Shown piece by piece: positions 29,451-44,613 of a stretch of 64,000 nt of DNA. The position numbers and the translations under genes are program-made. The notes under the pieces are model-generated. The model was not told where the DNA came from. It searched no databases and was given only the letters and a program-made list of their open reading frames with translations. The stretch covers positions 1 to 64,000 of the forward strand of contig JACPVI010000018.1 in assembly GCA_016191815.1 (NCBI GenBank). Reading direction: 5' to 3'. Source of the stretch: Myxococcales bacterium (lineage in GTDB: Bacteria; Myxococcota; Myxococcia; Myxococcales; Myxococcaceae). Within the stretch, counting starts at the first letter, position 1, and each line of letters opens with the position of its first letter.

Positions 29451-31595
29451 ATGAAGCGCGTTTTCTTGACGGCGACGCTGGTCGGGCTTTGGGGTTGCGG
29501 AGAGGGGCAGTTGGTGGTTTCGACCAAGTGGGATGAGCAGGGCCAGGAGAAGCAGGAGGAGGCCTGGTCGAGTGCAGACAACCCCTCGCTGTTCTCCTCC
29601 GCGCTCGAGCTCAGCTTCGCCGCGCTGCCGGAGCAGGGCCAGGCGGCGAACATCCCCTGGGCGGGCAATTACTGGCCCACCTACGAGGACAACATCAACC
29701 ACCGCTGGGACGGAGAGGCCTCCGACTCGCCGGCGCTCAAATACCAGAAGGCCTTCGGCGGCACCAATGTGGAGGACTTGGTTTCCAAGCACCACGGCAT
29801 CGACTCCAGCTCGGGCAAGGAGTGCGCCGAGTCGAGCGAGTGCAAGGCGGACCTGGGAGAAGTCTGCGCCAAGCGGCGGGGAGCGCAGAAGGGCCGTTGC
29901 ATCGCCACCTGGTGGGGCATCTGCCATGCCTGGGCGCCGGCCTCCATCCTCCTTCCCGAGCCCAAGCGAGCGGTCACCCGCAACGGCCTCACCTTCAAGG
30001 TGCAGGACCTCAAGGCGCTCGCCTCGCTGGTGCACAACGGCACCCGCACCAAGTTCGTCTCCCTGCGCTGCAACAAGAACGACGGCAGCGGGGAAATCAA
30101 CTTCGACAACTACGGGCGCCCCGACAGCTCCAGCGCCGAGTGCCGCGACACCAACCCCGGCACCTACCACCTCTTGCTCGCCAACTACTTGGGCCGGATG
30201 CGCCAGTCCTTCGTCGAGGACCGGACCTTCGACTACCAGGTGTGGAACCAGCCGTTGCGCGGCTACCGCATCGTGGAGAAGCGGCCGGTCACCATGGCCG
30301 AGGCCAACCAGCTCATCGGCGCGACTTCGGTGGGCGGGACCACCACCACCAAGAGCGGCACCGTGGCGAAGGACGCCTGGGCCCACCAGGGGTCTTTCCC
30401 CATGACCGCGGGCCAGAAGGTGAAGGTGTCGATGACCGGCTCGGCGGATGCGGACCTGTACGTCAAGTTCGGCGCGCAGCCGACCGACTCGGCCTGGGAC
30501 TGCCGCCCCTACGACGCGGGCTCGGCGGAGACTTGCGAGCTGACCGCTCCTTCCGGGTCCACCGCGGTGTTCGTCTCGGTGAAGGGCTACGCCGACAGCT
30601 CGAACTTCAACCTCAACATCACCGTGGGAGGCCAGGAGCCGACCTCCTACGTCTTCAACCCCGCCGCCGCTTCCTTCGTCTTCGTCCGCCTGGAGGTGAA
30701 GTACATCACCGAGGCAGGGGCCTCGGAGGACGGAAACCTCTCGTCGAGGATCGACAGCTTCACCCGCTCCGACCGCTACGAGTACGTCCTCGAGCTGGAC
30801 GGGCAGGGGAAGATCATCGGCGGCGAGTGGGTGGGCGCGAGCAAGAAGGACCACCCGGACTTCGTCTGGCTGCCTTTGGGTCCATCCGGGCAGACGGTGG
30901 CCGGCGGGGCGATCAGCTATGCCAACGTGAAGTCGCTCGTCGACGAGTCGGTGACCGAGCCCGGAGGCGGCGGCGGCGAGAAGACGGTGCAGCAGTCGGG
31001 CTCCGTCGCGAGGGACGAATTCAAGGTCTTCGGCCCGTTCAACGTGGCTGCCGGGAGCACCCTCACCGCTGAGATGACCGGCACCGGCGATGCCGACCTC
31101 TACGTCAAGAAGGGCGCTACCCCGACCGTGGCCGCCTACGACTGCCGTCCCTACAAGGATGGCTCGGCGGAGAGCTGCGCGCTCGCCGGCCCTGGCAACG
31201 TCTTCGTGGCGGTGCACGGCTACGCCGCGAGCAGCACCTTCGCGCTCACCATCAAGTATCGCGAGGCGAGCGGGAGCACCCCGCCGCCGGAGCCACCTCC
31301 GAGCATCCGCCACCTCGACCTGAGCGGGCAGGTGGCCCAGGGCGAGATGAAGGTCTACGACCTCGTCGTCCCGGCCGGGCTGAAGCTGCGCATCACCACC
31401 GCCGCGCCCGCCGACGTGGACCTCTATCTACAGATGGACGCCGCCCCCACCACCGCCGCCTACCTCAAGCGCGCCTACACCGCGTCGGGGAACGAGAGCC
31501 TGGAGTTCACCCCCGCCTCGAGCGGGAGGTTGATGATCGGCGTCCACGGCTACCGGGCCTCCAGCTTCACGCTGAAGACGGCCGCCATCCAGTGA
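29451..31595 (+). CDS. Secreted lipoprotein with transglutaminase-elicitor-like domain and three PPC domains
   Basis: 714 residues. Lipobox LVGLWGC (Cys16). Residues about 65-290 plus 400-480 match the transglutaminase elicitor family: NIPWAGNYWPTYEDNINHRW, catalytic-type Cys158 in WWGICHAWAPASIL, His240 in GTYHLLLANYLG, and RYEYVLELDGQGKIIGGEW followed by KDHPDFVWLP. Three bacterial pre-peptidase C-terminal (PPC) beta domains lie at about 297-393, 511-604 and 618-712. The first sits inside the transglutaminase domain, splitting it. The enzyme would crosslink or deamidate glutamine side chains outside the cell, anchored by lipid. Related domains are best known from oomycete plant pathogens. 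Confidence 0.75.
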   Translation: MKRVFLTATLVGLWGCGEGQLVVSTKWDEQGQEKQEEAWSSADNPSLFSSALELSFAALPEQGQAANIPWAGNYWPTYEDNINHRWDGEASDSPALKYQKAFGGTNVEDLVSKHHGIDSSSGKECAESSECKADLGEVCAKRRGAQKGRCIATWWGICHAWAPASILLPEPKRAVTRNGLTFKVQDLKALASLVHNGTRTKFVSLRCNKNDGSGEINFDNYGRPDSSSAECRDTNPGTYHLLLANYLGRMRQSFVEDRTFDYQVWNQPLRGYRIVEKRPVTMAEANQLIGATSVGGTTTTKSGTVAKDAWAHQGSFPMTAGQKVKVSMTGSADADLYVKFGAQPTDSAWDCRPYDAGSAETCELTAPSGSTAVFVSVKGYADSSNFNLNITVGGQEPTSYVFNPAAASFVFVRLEVKYITEAGASEDGNLSSRIDSFTRSDRYEYVLELDGQGKIIGGEWVGASKKDHPDFVWLPLGPSGQTVAGGAISYANVKSLVDESVTEPGGGGGEKTVQQSGSVARDEFKVFGPFNVAAGSTLTAEMTGTGDADLYVKKGATPTVAAYDCRPYKDGSAESCALAGPGNVFVAVHGYAASSTFALTIKYREASGSTPPPEPPPSIRHLDLSGQVAQGEMKVYDLVVPAGLKLRITTAAPADVDLYLQMDAAPTTAAYLKRAYTASGNESLEFTPASSGRLMIGVHGYRASSFTLKTAAIQ

Positions 31596-36243: not shown

Positions 36244-39200
36244 CTAGCCACTTGCTCGCCTGGGGGCGTCGGCGGCGCACAGCTCGGGGTTCGCCGCCAG
36301 GTGCCCTCCGAGCGCGGAGACCAGTTGGGCCTCGTGCTCGTCGGTGATGCGGTCCAGCTCCCGGTTCACCGCGCCGTAGATGGCGGCGAGCAAAGCGTAG
36401 ATGCGGTCGGGGCGCACCTTGGCCTCCGCCAGCGCCCGGGCGATCTGCGGGTGCTCCGGGTCCAAGAGCGCCAGTCGCCGCGCCCGGTCGTAACGCACCG
36501 GTTGCTTCCCTCCGCCGCGGTGGAGCCGAAGCTGGGCAAGCTCGTCGGGCAAGACTTGGCCCAGCGCTCCCGCGCGCAGGAGCTTCATCTCGCGCCGCAG
36601 CCGGAAAAGCCCGTGGTGAAGGGCCGAGCCTGCTTCGGGGTCCTCCTCGGCCTGCTCCCGCCGCCACTCCTCGATGTCGGTGACGCGGAGCAGCCTTCCC
36701 CCCAAGACCTCCTCCAGCTCGGAGAGCCACTTCGCCCGGAGGTCGTCCGCCTCCAGCACCAGCTCTCCTTCCACTCGGCCGCCGAGGAAGGAGGCCTTGA
36801 GCACCGGCACCTTGCCTCGCCTTTGGGCCAGGTCGGCGATCGCCTTGAGGTCCACCCAGCGCCCGTCAGTGGTGCGGAAGAGCTGCGCTCCGGCGAGCTC
36901 GAGGAGCGGCCCGCCCAGCCGATCGAGATGGGCGGGCGCTCGCACTCCGGCCGTGGCGATCGCCCGGAGCGCGTAGCGCGCGGCCAGCAGACGCCCGCCT
37001 GCGTTCATCCCCGCGGCGGACCGGGCCAAGGCGGTGAGGAGCCGGTCCAGCTCCATCAGCGCGGCGGCTCGAAGCTCCGGAGTCAGCGTGGCCTCCCGCC
37101 ACTCCTCGTCCACCGGAAGCTCGGGATGGTCGAGCACGCCTGCGACCCCGAGCCCTTCGCCCAATTCCAGGCGGTCCACCGCCACTCCGGAGCGGGAGAG
37201 CACCACCTTGGCCTCCGCATCTGGATCGCGGGGCAAGGCCAGCTCCCCTCGGAAGCCGCCCGCCTCCACGGACAGCCGAACCAGCGCGTCGCCAGGGTAG
37301 GCCAGCCGCTCGAGCTTTCGTGCCTGCCGCGAGGCCTCGACTTCCTCGGCGCGGCGAATGTCGTCGGAGACGTCCTCCACCGTGAGCTTCAGCGACTCCA
37401 AAAAGGCGCGAGTCCCCTTCCGGTCGGCCAGCACCAGCGCCGACGATGCGGGCGGCCGGAGCTCCACTTCCGCGATGGCCACGCTGCGCCGCGCGGAGTG
37501 CTCCGCCAGCACCTTTCCCAAGGTGACCTCCGAACCCGCCAAGTCCCAAAAGAGCGGGAGGGACGCCAGCCGCTCGGCCAAGGGGCCGTGCTGGCCCATC
37601 TTCCACTTCGCCGCCGCCTCGGCGCATCCGCGCCAGTCGGGATCGTCCCGGCCTTCGTTCAGCAGCCGGAGCAATGCCTTCTCGAGCGCGGCCTCCACCG
37701 CCTCCCGCACCTTCCTGTAGGTGGCGTTCCTGACGGCCTTGGTCCAGGAGGCATTGGGCGAGAGGGCGTCGCAGTTGACCCGAGCGAGTCCTCCCACTGG
37801 ATGCTCCAACTCCACCTGCTCGAGGAGGGCCCTCTGGTGCACCAGCCACAAGACCAGCTTCCCTTTCGCGGTTTGCCCGGGGACCAGCGCCACTTCGCCT
37901 TCCATGCCCCGGTCGGCAATCCGCTCGCGCCACCGGCTGGCCGCCGGGAGCTCCACCTCGAAGCGGGGCCGGCTGCGCACCTTCGCGGCGTGCTCCAGCT
38001 CCGAGGTGGCGTCGTACAGCTCGAGCTTGGTGCCCTCGAAGAGCGACTCCTCGCCGGCGCGCGGCCGCCACACCCAGCGGCCCTTCCGGAGCAGCGAGCC
38101 CTTGATCTTGGAGAACGGCACGCGCCGGCGCCGCTTGTGCTGCTCGAGCACCTCCCTGAAGCTGAGCTTCCGCCCGTCGGTGCTCTCGAGGAGCGGCAGG
38201 GGGGCGAGCTTCGGGGGAAGCCGTTTCTCTCGGAGCAGCCGCGCCACCGCCAGCGAAAGGCTGGGCGCCAGCATCGCCTGCTCGCCCTGGCCCAGCGAGC
38301 CCCACCGCTCGGCCAGCTCGGCCAGTAGCTTCGTGCCCTGCTCCACCACCAGGTGGACCAGCTTTTCGTACTCCCGGTCGCGCACCACGCCTGCGTGATC
38401 GAGCTGCGGCCGGAGCCGCTCCGAGCTGACCGCGGCGGACAGCACCTTGGGCAGCGCCGGCTCCGAGACGGTGCAGAGAGGCCGCCGCTCGTGGAACAGC
38501 TCCAGTCTTCCGCCGAGGATTTCGAGCCCCACCTCTCCTTCCACCCCGTCCTGGGCGAAGCTCCGGCGGTGCGCCGGCTTCGAGGAGAGGAGAATCCGCT
38601 CGGCCTTTGGCAACTGCTCTCGCTCTCGCCTCACGGCCAGCTCGCGCTTCATCGAGGCGGTCACGTCGGCAGCTTGTTTCCACCGCCTCAGCCCGGCGCG
38701 GATGCCCGGCTCGGCCGCCACCACCACCGGCTGCTTCGACAGAGGCTCGAAGGACATCGGCTCGGTGACGAAGCCCACCGACTCCAGTGCGTCCAGCTCC
38801 CGCGCACACCTGGGCTGGCCGTCGGTGCACGGGAAGAGCTTCGCCCCGCAAAGCCGGCCGGCCAGCTCCGGGCAGGCGCCGTCGAAACGGCTCCCGAGGG
38901 CGAAGAACAGCAACTCCCGCGCGCAGGCTTCCTGCGGATTGGAGAGGGACTGCTCGATGAGCCGGCGCTCCGCGGAAGCGACGGCGGCCTTGATCTTCTC
39001 TTGCGCTGACGCGGGGAGGCGCACCTCGGCGGGATCCAACCCCTCCACCTCGGCCACCGCCGCGAGCGGCAGGTGCTTGGGAACTTCGAGCTGGGCGAAG
39101 GGCCGTCCCTCGAGCAGCACCTCGACGATCGCTTCCGGGCCGCGGGTCGGATCGAACGCCGCTTCGCCTCGCAGGCCCGGGCACGACAGGAGCATGCGCG

Positions 39201-41850
39201 TCGAAAGGTCGGCGGAGAGCCTCGCCTCGCGGCGGGGCTTCTTGCGGAAGACGGCGCGAAGGCGGTGGCGCTCCAACTCTGGGCTGGCGTCCTCGATGGG
39301 CAGCTCGAGCAGCTCCGTGAGGAGCGTGCGAACCGTCCGGTCGCACAGGACGATGGTCATCGACTCGGGGTGCTCGGGGGCGCGGTCGGCCTCCAAGTCC
39401 CAGAGCTTCCCCGAAGCCTCGACCTCCGCTCCAAGCTGGTCCAGCGAGCGCGGTCCCCTCCCGGTGCGGAAGAGCGGAGCGTGGGCCGCGGCGCGCTGCG
39501 GCTCGTCGAGAGAGTCGAGCCGGCGAAACCCGGAGAGCTGCTTGTGCAGGAAGGCGTGCAGGTAGCGGCGGGCCGGCATGGGCAACGAATCGAGCGGCCC
39601 GGGAAAGGCGCTCAAGAGGGCGGGGCAGAGGCGGCGCTCGCCCTCGCGGACCGCCTCGATCACCCGCTCGAACGCCCCGTCGCGCACCGCGTGCCGCCAG
39701 GATTCGTCGGGCCGGAGCGCGGGGAAGTCCACCGCCGCCTCGGAGAGCCGGTAGCGGGCAGAGAACGAGCACTCCTCCAGGAGGAATCCGTCGCGCAGCA
39801 GCCGCAAGCTGAGCTGGTTGCCCACCTCCGAGGGAATGGCCACCTCCCCGCGCATTCCCTCGGCGGCGATGGGCACCGAGACCAGCTTCTGGCGCACCAG
39901 CGGCTCCTCCTTCGGACCGGAGAGCCGATCTCGGACTGCCTCCTCGCGCTGCAATTGTTCGCGTACGTCCTTCAACAGCTCTTCTCCGCCGAGGGCCTTG
40001 AGGGCGGTGCGTTCGGCTGGGCGCAACACCACCACCGGTGCTCCACTCAAGAGTGGGTGCGGCCAAGGGCTGGTGACGTGCCGCCACAGTGGCTCCCGGC
40101 ACAGCTCCTCGATGGACATCCGCCCGCCGCCCAGCCGGTCGAAGAGCGGCGCTGCACGAAGCTCGCTTGGCAGATCCGAAAGCCCCCGGCCTTGCCTGGA
40201 AAGACGGATCAACAAGTCCTTCCCGTGCTCGAGCGCGGCATCGGTTGGCTCTGGCGCCGAAACCGCACCGAGGATGGCCCCCACCGCGACGCCTTCGATC
40301 GCTTCCAGAAGCTGCCGCTTCACCTTTGGCCCGGGAGGGCTGGCCCACACCTCGTCGGGCAGCTCATGCTGGTAGTCCACCACCGCCAGGACTCGAAGCG
40401 GGTAGAGCTCGCCGCCCATCCATTGCTCGAGGAGCTTCCCCTGGCACAGCAGCCGGACCACCGAGGCGCCGCCGCTCTCCATCAGCCCAAGCTCGCCTCG
40501 GAGCGAGGAACCTTGCACCTCCGCTCGCCGCACGAATCCCCGCTTGGGGAGCGCCGGCTCCTCGACCGGCCCGCGCTCCCACCTGGCGTGGTTCCGCACC
40601 GCCAATTGGCGCGCTTCGACTTCGAGCTGGACATTGACCTGCGGCGTGGCAGGGAGCAGCGCCGCGACGTGCCCACCTTGAAGGGTGCGGCGCTCGTTTT
40701 CTTGCGTCGCGCCCAGGAGCAGCACCGCCGGCGGCGAATAGCTCCCTCTCGGGTAGGGCCGGAGCGCGAACTTGAGCGGCCGGCCGGCATCCAGCTCCTT
40801 TCTCAGCTCCGAGATGGCAATCCACTCCCCGGAAGGACCAGGGAGGATCGGTGCCGCTTCCAGCGCCTTTCGCGTCGTGCTCGCCGGATTCTTCCCTTGG
40901 CCGAACAGCTCGAGCGCGAGGCTCGCGATGCCCTGGCGCAGCTCCGGCTCGCCCTTCTCGACGAGCCGCTTCACCAACTCCTGGAGCAGCTCGTCGGCGA
41001 TTCCGGTGAGCTTCACCCTCGCCACCGTCACGTTCGAATCGGTGTCCACCACGTCGGAGCCGGAGGCGTTGCGCTGAAAGGAGTCGCACGAGGCCAGCGC
41101 CCAAAGCTGCAATCCGGGCAGGCGCACCGGGCGGGTGCACACCACCACCCCGCCCATGGCGAAGGAGAGGCTGCTCTGCTCCAGGTCCAGCTTCGGAACT
41201 GCGGCGTACAGCCGAAGCTTCCCCAGCGTCGCCTTTCGGCTCGCGAGCATCTTTCCTTCGAACGGCTCGGGCCGGTCCACCCGCGCTCCGTTCACGCTGA
41301 GGCGGGCGGGAAAGCTCCGGGCATGCGCCCGGATGGCGGCCTCCTCGGGAGAGCCGAGCAGCGCCGCGCGTACCACCCTCCAGCCAAGGCGCTTTCGCAC
41401 GTGGACGAAGGTGGTGCGGCCGGTGGCCTCGCGGCGGTGCTCGACATGGTCCCCCGACAGTTCGAGCGTCACGCCGCCGCTCGAAACCTTCACCAGCTTC
41501 GGGGAAAGGCCGAGCGCGCCCGCCACGCCCAGCGCCAGGAGCCGGACCCTCCGGTCGTCCTTGTTCCTCTCCCCGGCCAGGGCATGGCTCAGGAGGTCCC
41601 GCATCACCGCCGGGGGGAAGGGCTCGCCGTCGAAGGTCAGCTCGAAGTCGTCCGAGTCGATCCGCACCTCGACCCGCCGCGCCCCGGAGAGTGCCGCCGC
41701 CCGCAACAGCTCCAGCGCGTAGTGGTGCGGGTCCGCCAGCCGATGGTCGCGCAGCTTCGCCAGCGCGCGCTTCTCGTCGATGCGGAAGCGGCCTTCGCCG
41801 ACTTGCTCGGCGCCCTCGCGCAGCCTTCGGTGGAGGTCGTCTAGGCTCAT
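36244..41850 (-). CDS. Giant repeat protein with degenerate HSP90-like ATPase domain
   Basis: 1,868 residues from ATG 41850, overlapping the stop of the upstream ATPase gene (ATGA). No signal peptide or membrane helix. Residues 42-130 align with the GHKL domain of the partner (ELLRAAALSGARRVEV against ELIQNSIDAGSKRVEV) but lack the Mg-binding Asn (now Ala51) and the Gly-rich lid. From residue 330 to 1,700 one module recurs about seven times: an (A/L)-x-L-F turn at 333, 567, 791, 1003, 1218, 1431 and 1655, and a G-x2-G-E strand with GE at 452, 668, 895, 1105, 1318, 1535 and 1695. The C-terminus (1793-1846) resembles that of the partner. Architecture recalls sacsin-type chaperones. Function unknown. 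Confidence 0.85.
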   Translation of the reverse strand: MSLDDLHRRLREGAEQVGEGRFRIDEKRALAKLRDHRLADPHHYALELLRAAALSGARRVEVRIDSDDFELTFDGEPFPPAVMRDLLSHALAGERNKDDRRVRLLALGVAGALGLSPKLVKVSSGGVTLELSGDHVEHRREATGRTTFVHVRKRLGWRVVRAALLGSPEEAAIRAHARSFPARLSVNGARVDRPEPFEGKMLASRKATLGKLRLYAAVPKLDLEQSSLSFAMGGVVVCTRPVRLPGLQLWALASCDSFQRNASGSDVVDTDSNVTVARVKLTGIADELLQELVKRLVEKGEPELRQGIASLALELFGQGKNPASTTRKALEAAPILPGPSGEWIAISELRKELDAGRPLKFALRPYPRGSYSPPAVLLLGATQENERRTLQGGHVAALLPATPQVNVQLEVEARQLAVRNHARWERGPVEEPALPKRGFVRRAEVQGSSLRGELGLMESGGASVVRLLCQGKLLEQWMGGELYPLRVLAVVDYQHELPDEVWASPPGPKVKRQLLEAIEGVAVGAILGAVSAPEPTDAALEHGKDLLIRLSRQGRGLSDLPSELRAAPLFDRLGGGRMSIEELCREPLWRHVTSPWPHPLLSGAPVVVLRPAERTALKALGGEELLKDVREQLQREEAVRDRLSGPKEEPLVRQKLVSVPIAAEGMRGEVAIPSEVGNQLSLRLLRDGFLLEECSFSARYRLSEAAVDFPALRPDESWRHAVRDGAFERVIEAVREGERRLCPALLSAFPGPLDSLPMPARRYLHAFLHKQLSGFRRLDSLDEPQRAAAHAPLFRTGRGPRSLDQLGAEVEASGKLWDLEADRAPEHPESMTIVLCDRTVRTLLTELLELPIEDASPELERHRLRAVFRKKPRREARLSADLSTRMLLSCPGLRGEAAFDPTRGPEAIVEVLLEGRPFAQLEVPKHLPLAAVAEVEGLDPAEVRLPASAQEKIKAAVASAERRLIEQSLSNPQEACARELLFFALGSRFDGACPELAGRLCGAKLFPCTDGQPRCARELDALESVGFVTEPMSFEPLSKQPVVVAAEPGIRAGLRRWKQAADVTASMKRELAVRREREQLPKAERILLSSKPAHRRSFAQDGVEGEVGLEILGGRLELFHERRPLCTVSEPALPKVLSAAVSSERLRPQLDHAGVVRDREYEKLVHLVVEQGTKLLAELAERWGSLGQGEQAMLAPSLSLAVARLLREKRLPPKLAPLPLLESTDGRKLSFREVLEQHKRRRRVPFSKIKGSLLRKGRWVWRPRAGEESLFEGTKLELYDATSELEHAAKVRSRPRFEVELPAASRWRERIADRGMEGEVALVPGQTAKGKLVLWLVHQRALLEQVELEHPVGGLARVNCDALSPNASWTKAVRNATYRKVREAVEAALEKALLRLLNEGRDDPDWRGCAEAAAKWKMGQHGPLAERLASLPLFWDLAGSEVTLGKVLAEHSARRSVAIAEVELRPPASSALVLADRKGTRAFLESLKLTVEDVSDDIRRAEEVEASRQARKLERLAYPGDALVRLSVEAGGFRGELALPRDPDAEAKVVLSRSGVAVDRLELGEGLGVAGVLDHPELPVDEEWREATLTPELRAAALMELDRLLTALARSAAGMNAGGRLLAARYALRAIATAGVRAPAHLDRLGGPLLELAGAQLFRTTDGRWVDLKAIADLAQRRGKVPVLKASFLGGRVEGELVLEADDLRAKWLSELEEVLGGRLLRVTDIEEWRREQAEEDPEAGSALHHGLFRLRREMKLLRAGALGQVLPDELAQLRLHRGGGKQPVRYDRARRLALLDPEHPQIARALAEAKVRPDRIYALLAAIYGAVNRELDRITDEHEAQLVSALGGHLAANPELCAADAPRRASG

Positions 41851-43430
41851 GCGGAGAGCGCCAACTCGGTGAGGCGACCGTCGGCGCGTTCGTTTAGCGC
41901 TTCGTGCGTCGCCGCCACCAGCCGCGCCGCGAGCAGCGCCGCCAGCCTGGGGCTCTTCGGCGCCAGCTCGAGCAAGGGAGCGATGAGCGGGTGTCCGCGG
42001 TTCAGGCACAGGATGGGCGGCGCGCCGGCGCGGAAGGGAGAGCGGAAGGCCTCCCTGGAAAGCAGCGGCCGCCCCAGGGCCTCCACCGCGAGGCAGGGGC
42101 GGTCCTTCCCGGCGCCGTGCACCGCCCCCACCGCCGCCTCGCCGGTGCAGGCCCCCGCCGCCTCGAGCAACGGCGCGAGGGCGGCGAGAAACGCCCGGAG
42201 ATCCTCCGGGACCGCTTCGGCGAAGGTGAAGAGCTGGCCCGCGAGCATCGCCTGGTCGAAGCCGAGCAGCCGCTGCACTCGCCCGACGGTGGGTTCTCCG
42301 GGAGCTCCCTCCAGCACGGCCATCTCCTGGGAGCGCATGCGGGCGACGAGCACGTCGTCCGCGGGCGCCACCACCAGCGCCCCGGCCTGCTTCGACAGAC
42401 TTCGCACCTCGCGCGCCGCCGCCGCGCCGCCGCCCGGCAGCCTGAGCCACAGCTTCCCCAGGTCCAGCCGGTCTCCGTAGGAGAGCAGCACCTTGAGCAT
42501 CACCTGCCAGTCGGCGCTCCCGTCGGGGCGTTCCGCCGCTCGCCGCAGCTCCTCCGGAAGCCGCTGCCGGAGTGGGCCGTAGACGAGGCGGCGCACCAGC
42601 TCGATGGCGTCCTCGTAGTGCTTGTCCGTGCGGACGTTGTCGCGGGTGAGGGTGTGCTCGAGGTAGCGGGAGACAATCTTCACCGCCACTCCGGGGAAGA
42701 GGTTCGCCCTCACCTCGCGCAAGGTGAGGCCCCGGTTGTACATCCCCACCTCGGGAGGATCGGTGCGCGAGGGACCAGCCACGATATGGGTGCCCTCCTC
42801 CTGGTACTCGACCTGGAAGGGGGCGTCGACCGCCAGCGGCTCGCGCACCGAGGCGGGGGGACCGGGCGGGGTGCCGTCGGCTCCTCCGGCGGCGAAGCGG
42901 ACCTCGGCCTCCGAGTGCCGGCACCAGCGGCACACCGCGCCGAAGGACTTGGCCACGAAGTCCTGGTACTCGGCGGAGCTCATCTCCTTGTGCAGCGCCA
43001 CCCGGGTGCCTTCGAACGGCTCCTGGCTGCGCAAGAGCTCGTAGCTCCGGTCCTTCCGGAAGATGACGCGCCAGTACTCGGCGTCCCTGCCGGTGTCCAC
43101 CACCACCAGGTCGGGCGAGCTGGCGAAGATGCTCACGAAGCCGATGCCGAACTTGCCGATCTTGGTGAGGTCGTTCTCCTTGGTGGAGCGGAACTTGGTG
43201 AGCAGGTAGTCCTCGATGATCCGCCGGTCCATCCCCTCGCCCCAGTCGGCGACCGAGGCGGTGCACAGGCCCTTTTCCGAGGCCGGCTTGAAGGCGAGCG
43301 TCACCTCGACCCGCTTCGAGCCGGCGTCGATGCTGTTCTGGATCAGCTCCCGGTAGAAGGCGAAGGGGTCGCTGAACTGGTGGACCAGCTCCTCCACCAG
43401 GTCATCGGCGGCCTGGACCCTGCGAGCCAT
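41847..43430 (-). CDS. HSP90-like GHKL ATPase
   Basis: 527 residues. The N-terminal 130 residues are an HSP90/GHKL ATP-binding domain with all motifs: Glu28 and Asn32 in FYRELIQNSIDAGSKRVEV, Asp62 in VADWGEGMDRRII, and the lid GKIGKFGIGFVSIF-type glycine motif (residues 89-102). LTRDNVRTDKHYEDAI (261-276) corresponds to the HSP90 middle-domain arginine segment. No HSP90 C-terminal dimerisation domain is obvious; instead the end (NRGHPLIAPLLELA, then LAALLAARLVAA) resembles the C-terminus of the giant protein encoded next. It should bind and hydrolyse ATP and is the only catalytically competent ATPase of the pair. Confidence 0.88.
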   Translation of the reverse strand: MARRVQAADDLVEELVHQFSDPFAFYRELIQNSIDAGSKRVEVTLAFKPASEKGLCTASVADWGEGMDRRIIEDYLLTKFRSTKENDLTKIGKFGIGFVSIFASSPDLVVVDTGRDAEYWRVIFRKDRSYELLRSQEPFEGTRVALHKEMSSAEYQDFVAKSFGAVCRWCRHSEAEVRFAAGGADGTPPGPPASVREPLAVDAPFQVEYQEEGTHIVAGPSRTDPPEVGMYNRGLTLREVRANLFPGVAVKIVSRYLEHTLTRDNVRTDKHYEDAIELVRRLVYGPLRQRLPEELRRAAERPDGSADWQVMLKVLLSYGDRLDLGKLWLRLPGGGAAAAREVRSLSKQAGALVVAPADDVLVARMRSQEMAVLEGAPGEPTVGRVQRLLGFDQAMLAGQLFTFAEAVPEDLRAFLAALAPLLEAAGACTGEAAVGAVHGAGKDRPCLAVEALGRPLLSREAFRSPFRAGAPPILCLNRGHPLIAPLLELAPKSPRLAALLAARLVAATHEALNERADGRLTELALSA

Positions 43431-43457: not shown

Positions 43458-43676
43458 TCAGTGGGCTCGCTTGAGCCGAGCCAGCTCCCGCTCGATCCGT
43501 GCCAGGCGCCGCTCATGGTCGCGCCAATGCTTGCCGGTATTCTCGACGATCTGCTCGAGTCGGGTGGTCATCTGGTCCAGCCTGGTCGTCAGGCGCGAGT
43601 CCATCGCGACGATGGACACCTCGATGCGCCCGAGCGCGTCGACGATCTCATCTCGTCCGTTTCCCTTGGACGCCAT
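43458..43676 (-). CDS. Small coiled-coil protein
   Basis: 72 residues from ATG 43676; the longer frame to 43781 reads through unlikely cysteine-rich sequence. The whole protein is a heptad-like helix (IVDALGRIEVSIVAMDSRL, LTTRLDQMTTRLEQIVENTG, RRLARIERELARLKRA), so a coiled-coil dimer or tether is expected. It lies 27 bases upstream of the HSP90-like gene on the same strand and may be the first gene of that operon. TACACT just before the ATG is a good -10 match, implying an almost leaderless message. Confidence 0.6.
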   Translation of the reverse strand: MASKGNGRDEIVDALGRIEVSIVAMDSRLTTRLDQMTTRLEQIVENTGKHWRDHERRLARIERELARLKRAH

Positions 43677-43743: not shown

Positions 43744-44613
43744 TCACCGGCTTCGCACCACCAGTGAGACGCCCGCGGCACTCAGGGCGGCCCTGAGCGG
43801 GGCGTCCGCCGTCGGGGTGCAGACCAGCCTCCGCTCCTTCGCCACCCGGAATCCCAGCGCGGACCTCCGGGCACAGGCCTCCGCCGAGCGGTCCAGCTCG
43901 CTCCACGGGTCGGCGCAGCGGTCCTCGCCGACGGTACCTCCCGCGCGCTCGAGCGCCAGGTGCAACACCGCCGCGCCCGGAAGCGACTCGAGGACCGGGG
44001 AGACGGTGGCCGGCCCCTCCACGCCCTCTCGCTGCAACGGCCCGATGACGCCGCGGACCACCTCTTCGACCGAGACTCCCTCCAGCGCCGCGAGGGCCGT
44101 GAACGCCCGCTCGGCGTCGCCCGCCACTGCCCTGTCCACCGCAAGGCAGAAGGCCTCGGTGGGACGGGCGAGGTCGCCGCGCTCCAGCCCGACGTGGGCT
44201 TCTCCGCGCTGGGCGAAGACGAAGGTGTGCCGCGCAAGACAGCCCCGCCCGTCCACCCGGTCGGCCGAGACCACGAAGCGGGACAGGCCACGCTCGCGGG
44301 AGACCAGCCGCGCCTCCAGGCCGGACGCGTCCGGAAGCTCCACCGCCGCCAGCGCCGCGTAGAAAGAGCTGGCCTTGGCCGAGGGCCGAGCCCGGTGGGC
44401 GCGAAAGAAATCGCGCGCCACCTTCTGCACCGAGCGGAGCCGGGTCAGCGACCGGCGGATGGGCAGGCCGGACCGCGGATCCAGATCCACGAAGCGCTGC
44501 TTGCCTCGCGAGCCCTTGGGGCCGAGGAAGGAGAGGAAAGCCTCGATGCGCCGCGCGTCCTGGAAGTGAGCCCCGGGGCGCGCGACTTCGAGCAGCGCCC
44601 GGAGCGCCCCCAA
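43744..44613 (-). CDS. Hypothetical protein, start uncertain
   Basis: 289 residues from TTG 44613. Protein-like sequence continues upstream in frame (PIRLHGQAAEEYLGALRALL), and a CTG at 44673 has AAGGAG directly before it, so the true start may be there. No ATG or GTG is available before the upstream stop. Mixed alpha/beta soluble composition, no signal peptide. Segments such as KQRFVDLDPRSGLPIRRSLTR and RHTFVFAQRGEAHVGLERG were not recognised. It is upstream of the coiled-coil and HSP90-like genes on the same strand, 67 bases away, and could belong to the same operon. Confidence 0.55.
   Translation of the reverse strand: MGALRALLEVARPGAHFQDARRIEAFLSFLGPKGSRGKQRFVDLDPRSGLPIRRSLTRLRSVQKVARDFFRAHRARPSAKASSFYAALAAVELPDASGLEARLVSRERGLSRFVVSADRVDGRGCLARHTFVFAQRGEAHVGLERGDLARPTEAFCLAVDRAVAGDAERAFTALAALEGVSVEEVVRGVIGPLQREGVEGPATVSPVLESLPGAAVLHLALERAGGTVGEDRCADPWSELDRSAEACARRSALGFRVAKERRLVCTPTADAPLRAALSAAGVSLVVRSR

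Follow-up and report, generated by a model that had tools for sequence, protein, structure and literature searches.

A bacterial gene pair encoding an HSP90-like ATPase and a giant, degenerate partner: a candidate split counterpart of sacsin

HSP90 proteins are, to our knowledge, described as homodimers with two active sites, and we know of no dedicated ATP-dead giant partner for the canonical forms. Sacsin is known as a giant with HSP90-like modules (PMC9880540, PMC3710099), for which catalytic arginines and HSP90-like middle regions have been described and in which all three N-modules retain their ATP-binding residues (PMC9880540). Here we examine a pair of overlapping genes at letters 36,244-43,430 of a 64,000-nucleotide stretch of DNA from a Myxococcales bacterium (contig JACPVI010000018.1, positions 1 to 64,000; hereafter the window), one encoding an HSP90-like ATPase and the other a giant partner. 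Overall, we believe that the two proteins form a heteromeric chaperone of the HSP90 type and that the pair is a split, bacterial counterpart of sacsin, and we place the probability of this reading at about 0.6. The sequence-only reading of the window had called the pair chaperone-like; the fold, the arrangement of domains and, in certain lineages, a cyclophilin gene next door support that description, and from these we infer the activity itself. The two-gene bacterial form with a dead giant is what appears to be new, and we found no description of it in the open-access papers searched; HSP90 itself and the sacsin giant with its HSP90-like modules are already known. The pair is laid out as follows.

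43430..41847, minus strand: HSP90-like ATPase gene, ATG start, 527 residues
41850..36244, minus strand: giant partner gene, ATG start, 1,868 residues
41847..41850, minus strand: ATGA stop/start overlap coupling the ATPase and giant genes, 4 nt common to both
40576..41850, minus strand: giant residues 1-425, a module resembling a degenerate HSP90 N-domain plus middle domain
36781..40575, minus strand: giant residues 426-1690, six tandem, mutually homologous repeats
36247..36783, minus strand: giant residues 1690-1868, a conserved C-terminal part with a strongly conserved NRxL..TDxxE..L stretch

An intact 527-residue GHKL ATPase, its gene overlapping by ATGA that of a 1,868-residue soluble protein, had been read from the letters alone, and coordinates, motifs and hydropathy all agree with that description; the giant has no stretch resembling a membrane span, its best 19-residue Kyte-Doolittle mean being 1.74. 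The overlap is not a matter of chance, because overlaps of the same kind recur when 61 pairs from other genomes are measured, at exactly 4 nt in 27 of them and 22 nt in 13. The distance between the two genes is at most 30 nt in 55 of those 61 pairs. In relatives both reading frames are open and align end to end, the ATPase at 51-56% identity and the giant at 35-43%.

The ATPase and the giant are a real, conserved unit. A search of 98 relatives found full or near-full orthologues of the ATPase (51-56% identity) in ten close relatives besides the window's genome, and in eight of these the giant comes immediately after the ATPase; of the remaining two, one (G047) has the last part of the ATPase together with the giant on another contig, and in the other (G005) 0.7 kb separates the two genes. 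A survey of 145-147 genomes of the class, with profile thresholds of E 1e-20 for the ATPase, 1e-10 for the giant and 1e-6 for the protein encoded by the gene at 43744, found all three in the identical 12 of about 145 genomes, so that homologues of the giant were not found there without the ATPase. The chance of two such 12-genome sets coinciding is about 1e-17, a figure whose true weight is lowered by kinship among the genomes. Conserved adjacency across distant taxa, which the sequence-only reading had proposed as a check, was also found. An alignment of the ATPase searched against 84,980 species genomes succeeded where a single-protein query returned no relatives, and yielded 98 relatives, from which 80 loci were retained. 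By their record titles these loci belong to Myxococcota, Elusimicrobiota, Vulcanimicrobiota (Eremiobacterota), Armatimonadota, Planctomycetota and Bdellovibrionota, together with records named only Pseudomonadota. The gene pair is thus present in at least six phyla, most records being metagenome bins for which single-phylum labels are soft; cultured carriers include Nannocystis, Plesiocystis pacifica and Enhygromyxa salina. With three of the 80 loci cut by a contig end, 77 could be assessed for the position of the partner, which is directly downstream in 65, upstream in 3, fused to the ATPase in 2 and not adjacent in 7. One fusion (L122, 1,885 residues) is clean; the other (L059) has Ns at the junction and is not relied on here.

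By its residues the ATPase should be an active subunit. In the window's protein the ATP-binding motifs ELIQNSID, DWGEGM and IGKFGIGF are all intact, and a GHKL N-domain (approximately residues 1-195) is followed by a middle domain with an LTRDN catalytic-arginine loop (R263) and by a C-terminal part with an alpha/beta and a helical portion. Twelve positions (E28, N32, D35, D62, G64, G66, M67, G92, G95, G97, T142 and R263) are invariant in 76 of 76 ATPases, and by position and motif R263 would be the counterpart of yeast Arg380. The only Pfam domain matched by the window ATPase is GHKL (HATPase_c_3 at 1.3e-10, SACS at 7e-7). All 76 ATPases match SACS at E 1e-5 or better (best 8e-11) and none matches the HSP90 family model PF00183 at E 1e-5, while the HtpG and PRK14083 models cover only residues 17-180 of the window ATPase and score far under their cut-offs. 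HATPase is the one other Pfam family that the ATPases match. By sequence, then, the nearest named family is sacsin. The HSP90 fold itself comes from modelling: the structure model of the ATPase has a predicted local distance difference test score (pLDDT) of 94.1, its best Foldseek matches in the PDB are full-length HSP90 and TRAP1 (E about 1e-18), and residues 1-402 align with the N and middle domains of TRAP1 with a VIA Z of 20.0 over 361 residues at 7.5 Å. Against whole HSP90 the VIA Z reaches 20.7, over 448 residues at 12.9 Å. Sequence identity within the structural alignments to HSP90s is 9-18%.

The giant, which had been described from the sequence as a repeat protein, does contain six repeats, and it is also more than repeats, having a degenerate HSP90-like module at its start. 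No match to the giant was found in Pfam, NCBIfam, PADLOC or PHROGs, and Pfam likewise returned nothing for 30 partners (first 1,180-1,230 residues) or for the whole of the window's giant; no named family covers both proteins of the pair, in keeping with the earlier failure to recognise it as a named system. A profile built solely from residues 1-320 of 61 partners matched 74 ATPases with a median E of 3e-16, and the window ATPase, searched as a single sequence, at 4.8e-17. Besides ATPases the profile matched only partner-type genes, despite histidine-kinase-like neighbours in the searched set, and this specificity indicates that the giant begins with a relative of the ATPase. Across the 61 partners the position of the Mg-binding Asn is occupied by Ala in 54, Ser in 3, Cys in 2 and Gly in 2, and that of the catalytic-loop Arg by Ser or Asp in 60, with one gapped (this column was matched by motif order). 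With both residues lost, the N-module of the giant is predicted to be ATP-dead. Extra short genes that match the same N-terminal profile are present in L099 (6750-8060), L102 (6457-8097), L106 (6256-7659) and L092 (6799-8106), so some loci would have several dead HSP90-like modules; L079 and L084 carry two or three partner genes in tandem.

A model of giant residues 1-1180 has a pLDDT of 87.8 and a predicted template-modelling score (pTM) of 0.44, hence the packing of its domains is uncertain. Residues 4-414 align with the N and middle domains of HSP90 (Z 18.9, 4.9 Å, 367 residues). The six repeats that follow are about 205 residues each, with approximate bounds of 426-640, 648-880, 881-1085, 1086-1300, 1300-1505 and 1506-1690, and in HHalign comparisons most pairs score 90-99.5% probability, the lowest being 80.6%. 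The modelled repeats copy the element order of the first module's middle domain, that is, five strands, a long helix, further helices and a small mixed part. On the basis of this element order and of modest HHalign scores, it is likely, but not proven, that the repeats are HSP90 middle domains. A C-terminal domain common to the ATPase and the giant (LNxxHP motif) is suggested by a weak profile match (48%).

Two further genes near the pair had been put forward from the sequence as possible members of the same operon.

43744..44613, minus strand: third component gene (family C0), found in the same genomes as the pair within the class
43458-43676, minus strand: 72-residue coiled-coil open reading frame, ending 27 nt upstream of the ATPase

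The proposal holds for the gene at 43744, which we regard as a third component because it occurs in the same 12 class genomes as the ATPase and the giant. Its product belongs to a family of about 290-330 residues without a Pfam match, and the profile match extends to 44643, so that the true start may be upstream of the TTG at 44613. Besides the window, 27 of the 80 loci have the gene beside the pair or close to it. In several of the 12 class genomes it is found at a distance from the pair, on the same contig or a different one, so the association rests on co-inheritance and not on position alone. The 72-residue coiled-coil gene is not conserved at the equivalent place in the ten close relatives, and we reject it as a component; two paralogues are encoded elsewhere in the window's genome (contigs C3 and C80).

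Other neighbours are confined to particular lineages. In six loci, namely L092, L099, L102, L105 and L106 (at about 9.4-9.9 kb) and L059, the ATPase has a cyclophilin gene (PF00160, 5.6e-47) no more than about 100 nt upstream; most of these loci are from Vulcanimicrobiota and one is from CPR1. Cyclophilins are HSP90 co-chaperones in eukaryotes, and for that reason the adjacent gene provides independent, lineage-limited support for a folding role. Four of these loci (L092, L099, L105 and L106) also have two tandem ATP-binding cassette (ABC) exporters and a calcineurin-like phosphoesterase downstream of the partner. A coiled-coil protein of about 355 residues (family C2) is encoded nearby in 18 loci and an AAA+ protein of about 552 residues (family C3) in 11, the AAA+ gene in most cases immediately preceding the ATPase; with only 18 and 11 occurrences, and none in the window's genome, we reject both as universal parts of the system. 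In L056, L061, L066, L067, L072, L074, L075 and L078 (5-10 kb) the order is a fixed block of the C2 coiled-coil protein, C0 (about 330 residues), the AAA+ protein (about 552 residues) and then the ATPase, and no giant follows the ATPase in L067, L074 and L075. Elsewhere in the window, the gene at 29451-31592 on the plus strand encodes a member of the Transglutaminase elicitor family (PF16683, 4e-98), whose Pfam name suggests that it was described from oomycete elicitors; the protein also has pre-peptidase C-terminal domains.

How, then, does the pair compare with the described systems? It resembles sacsin in the GHKL/HSP90-like N-domain with its downstream catalytic arginine, in having a giant with tandem HSP90-like modules, and in a match of the window ATPase to NF047352 (sacsin N-terminal ATP-binding-like domain) at 6.8e-11, the protein falling under both curated cut-offs, with 29.7 against 32.8 for SACS (PF25794) and 42.5 against 50 bits for NF047352. 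It differs in that the giant's N-module has lost the ATP-binding residues, and in that the active module and the degenerate one belong to separate polypeptides, joined only in L122 (and, across Ns, in L059). Where a single sacsin chain carries several HSP90-like modules that are complete and ATP-competent, the giant has a single degenerate N-module, and the ubiquitin-like, J and HEPN domains of sacsin were not found by Pfam in the ATPases, in the first 1,180-1,230 residues of 30 partners or in the window giant. The likeness to HSP90, HtpG and TRAP1 lies in the ATPase, which keeps the GHKL site (catalytic Glu, Mg-binding Asn and glycine motifs) and the middle-domain Arg, both lost from the giant, and in the structural alignments of the two models; the differences are the missing PF00183 match and the dedicated ATP-dead giant partner. 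Finally, the ATPase has the GHKL plus S5-like transducer fold of MORC and MutL proteins. MORC2 is second to the HSP90s among the matches of its model (VIA Z 17.3 over 268 residues, N-domain and transducer only), but this match stops after the transducer whereas those to HSP90 continue through the middle domain, and no nuclease or zinc-finger family was found by Pfam in the ATPase or the giant.

Based on these comparisons, a general scheme for a heteromeric chaperone can be proposed. The active 527-residue subunit would pair with the giant's dead HSP90-like module, and the paired modules would form an asymmetric, ATP-driven clamp in which ATP is hydrolysed on one side only. The chain of middle-type repeats could then serve as an enlarged surface for holding clients, with the third protein as an obligate co-factor and the upstream cyclophilin or AAA+ protein, where present, acting on the same clients. 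A stronger version, in which the system is an obligate heteromeric HSP90 made of one hydrolysing subunit, a dead giant with six middle-type repeats and a dedicated third protein, and represents a separate branch of the HSP90/sacsin superfamily, strikes us as evenly balanced between true and false.

Several observations weigh against the chaperone interpretation. The HSP90 C-terminal dimerisation domain is insecure, alignments that take in residue 527 having root-mean-square deviations of about 12 Å; the N-domain and transducer fold is common to DNA-acting GHKL proteins (MORC2 scores Z 17.3 with the ATPase and 16.0 with the giant); and the first module's middle domain matches the repeats only modestly by HHalign, at 35-67%. 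In addition, seven of the 77 assessable loci carry the ATPase without an adjacent partner, so that in these the ATPase may work by itself or use a partner encoded elsewhere. The same seven loci would suit a model in which the two proteins are mere neighbours, the ATPase an HtpG-like homodimer and the giant an unrelated scaffold, but we consider this most improbable given the conserved 4-nt and 22-nt overlaps, the clean fusion in L122, the identical phyletic sets and the correlated divergence of the two proteins (r 0.88 over 60 loci, a correlation that shared descent alone could give). It is also conceivable, if rather unlikely, that the pair, instead of being a general chaperone, serves only to assemble or mature one lineage-specific client, such as an envelope or signalling complex, with the giant as a scaffold opened and closed by the ATPase. 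Such a role would fit the restriction of the pair to some genomes within a class, its absence from most relatives searched, the fixed co-occurrence of a third protein, and the MreB/MreC and ABC exporters among some neighbours; outside C0, C2, C3 and cyclophilin, however, no neighbour points to a client common to many phyla.

A GHKL-based conflict (anti-phage) system, with the ATPase sensing or clamping material from an invader and the giant acting as effector or sensor in the manner of Tiamat TmtA or the MORC-type conflict ATPases, is in our view unlikely, and a defence role is less likely than a chaperone role. The distribution of the pair is patchy across phyla, MORC2 is among the structural matches, a GHKL end on a giant protein has precedents in defence, and TmtA, itself a large protein with a GHKL N-terminus, is matched weakly by the ATPase (2.8e-7) and by the fused L122 protein (1.2e-8). 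Yet the similarity to TmtA is confined to about 90 residues of the GHKL core even in the fused protein, and neither subunit has a recognisable nuclease, DNA-binding or toxin domain. Nor did the enrichment near defence genes that the sequence-only reading had raised as a possible sign of a system appear in plasmid, phage, flank or neighbour-gene searches: 72,556 plasmid records gave no match and 50,697 phage records a single weak, GHKL-only one, no defence family recurs in more than four members among 125 neighbour genes, and the flanks in the window are ordinary chromosomal genes. After these searches, and that of PADLOC, we rejected defence as the leading idea. We likewise rejected the notion that the pair replaces HtpG. 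No canonical HSP90 (PF00183) is encoded in the window's genome, but four of the 12 carriers have one (Fisher P 0.37). Many relatives encode, besides HtpG, a second, weakly matching HSP90-like gene of about 613-650 residues.

A genetically encoded, asymmetric HSP90, having a live subunit, a dead one and an extended series of client-type domains, would allow the contribution of each half of the HSP90 clamp to be studied in a natural system, and the presence of the pair in cultured strains makes it testable. Sacsin's size of 4,579 residues is reported to have hampered its biochemistry (PMC3629688); the pair offers small, separable bacterial proteins that are related to sacsin by sequence. If the obligate heteromer is real, it possibly shows how sacsin-like giants arose, by fusion, from split bacterial genes.

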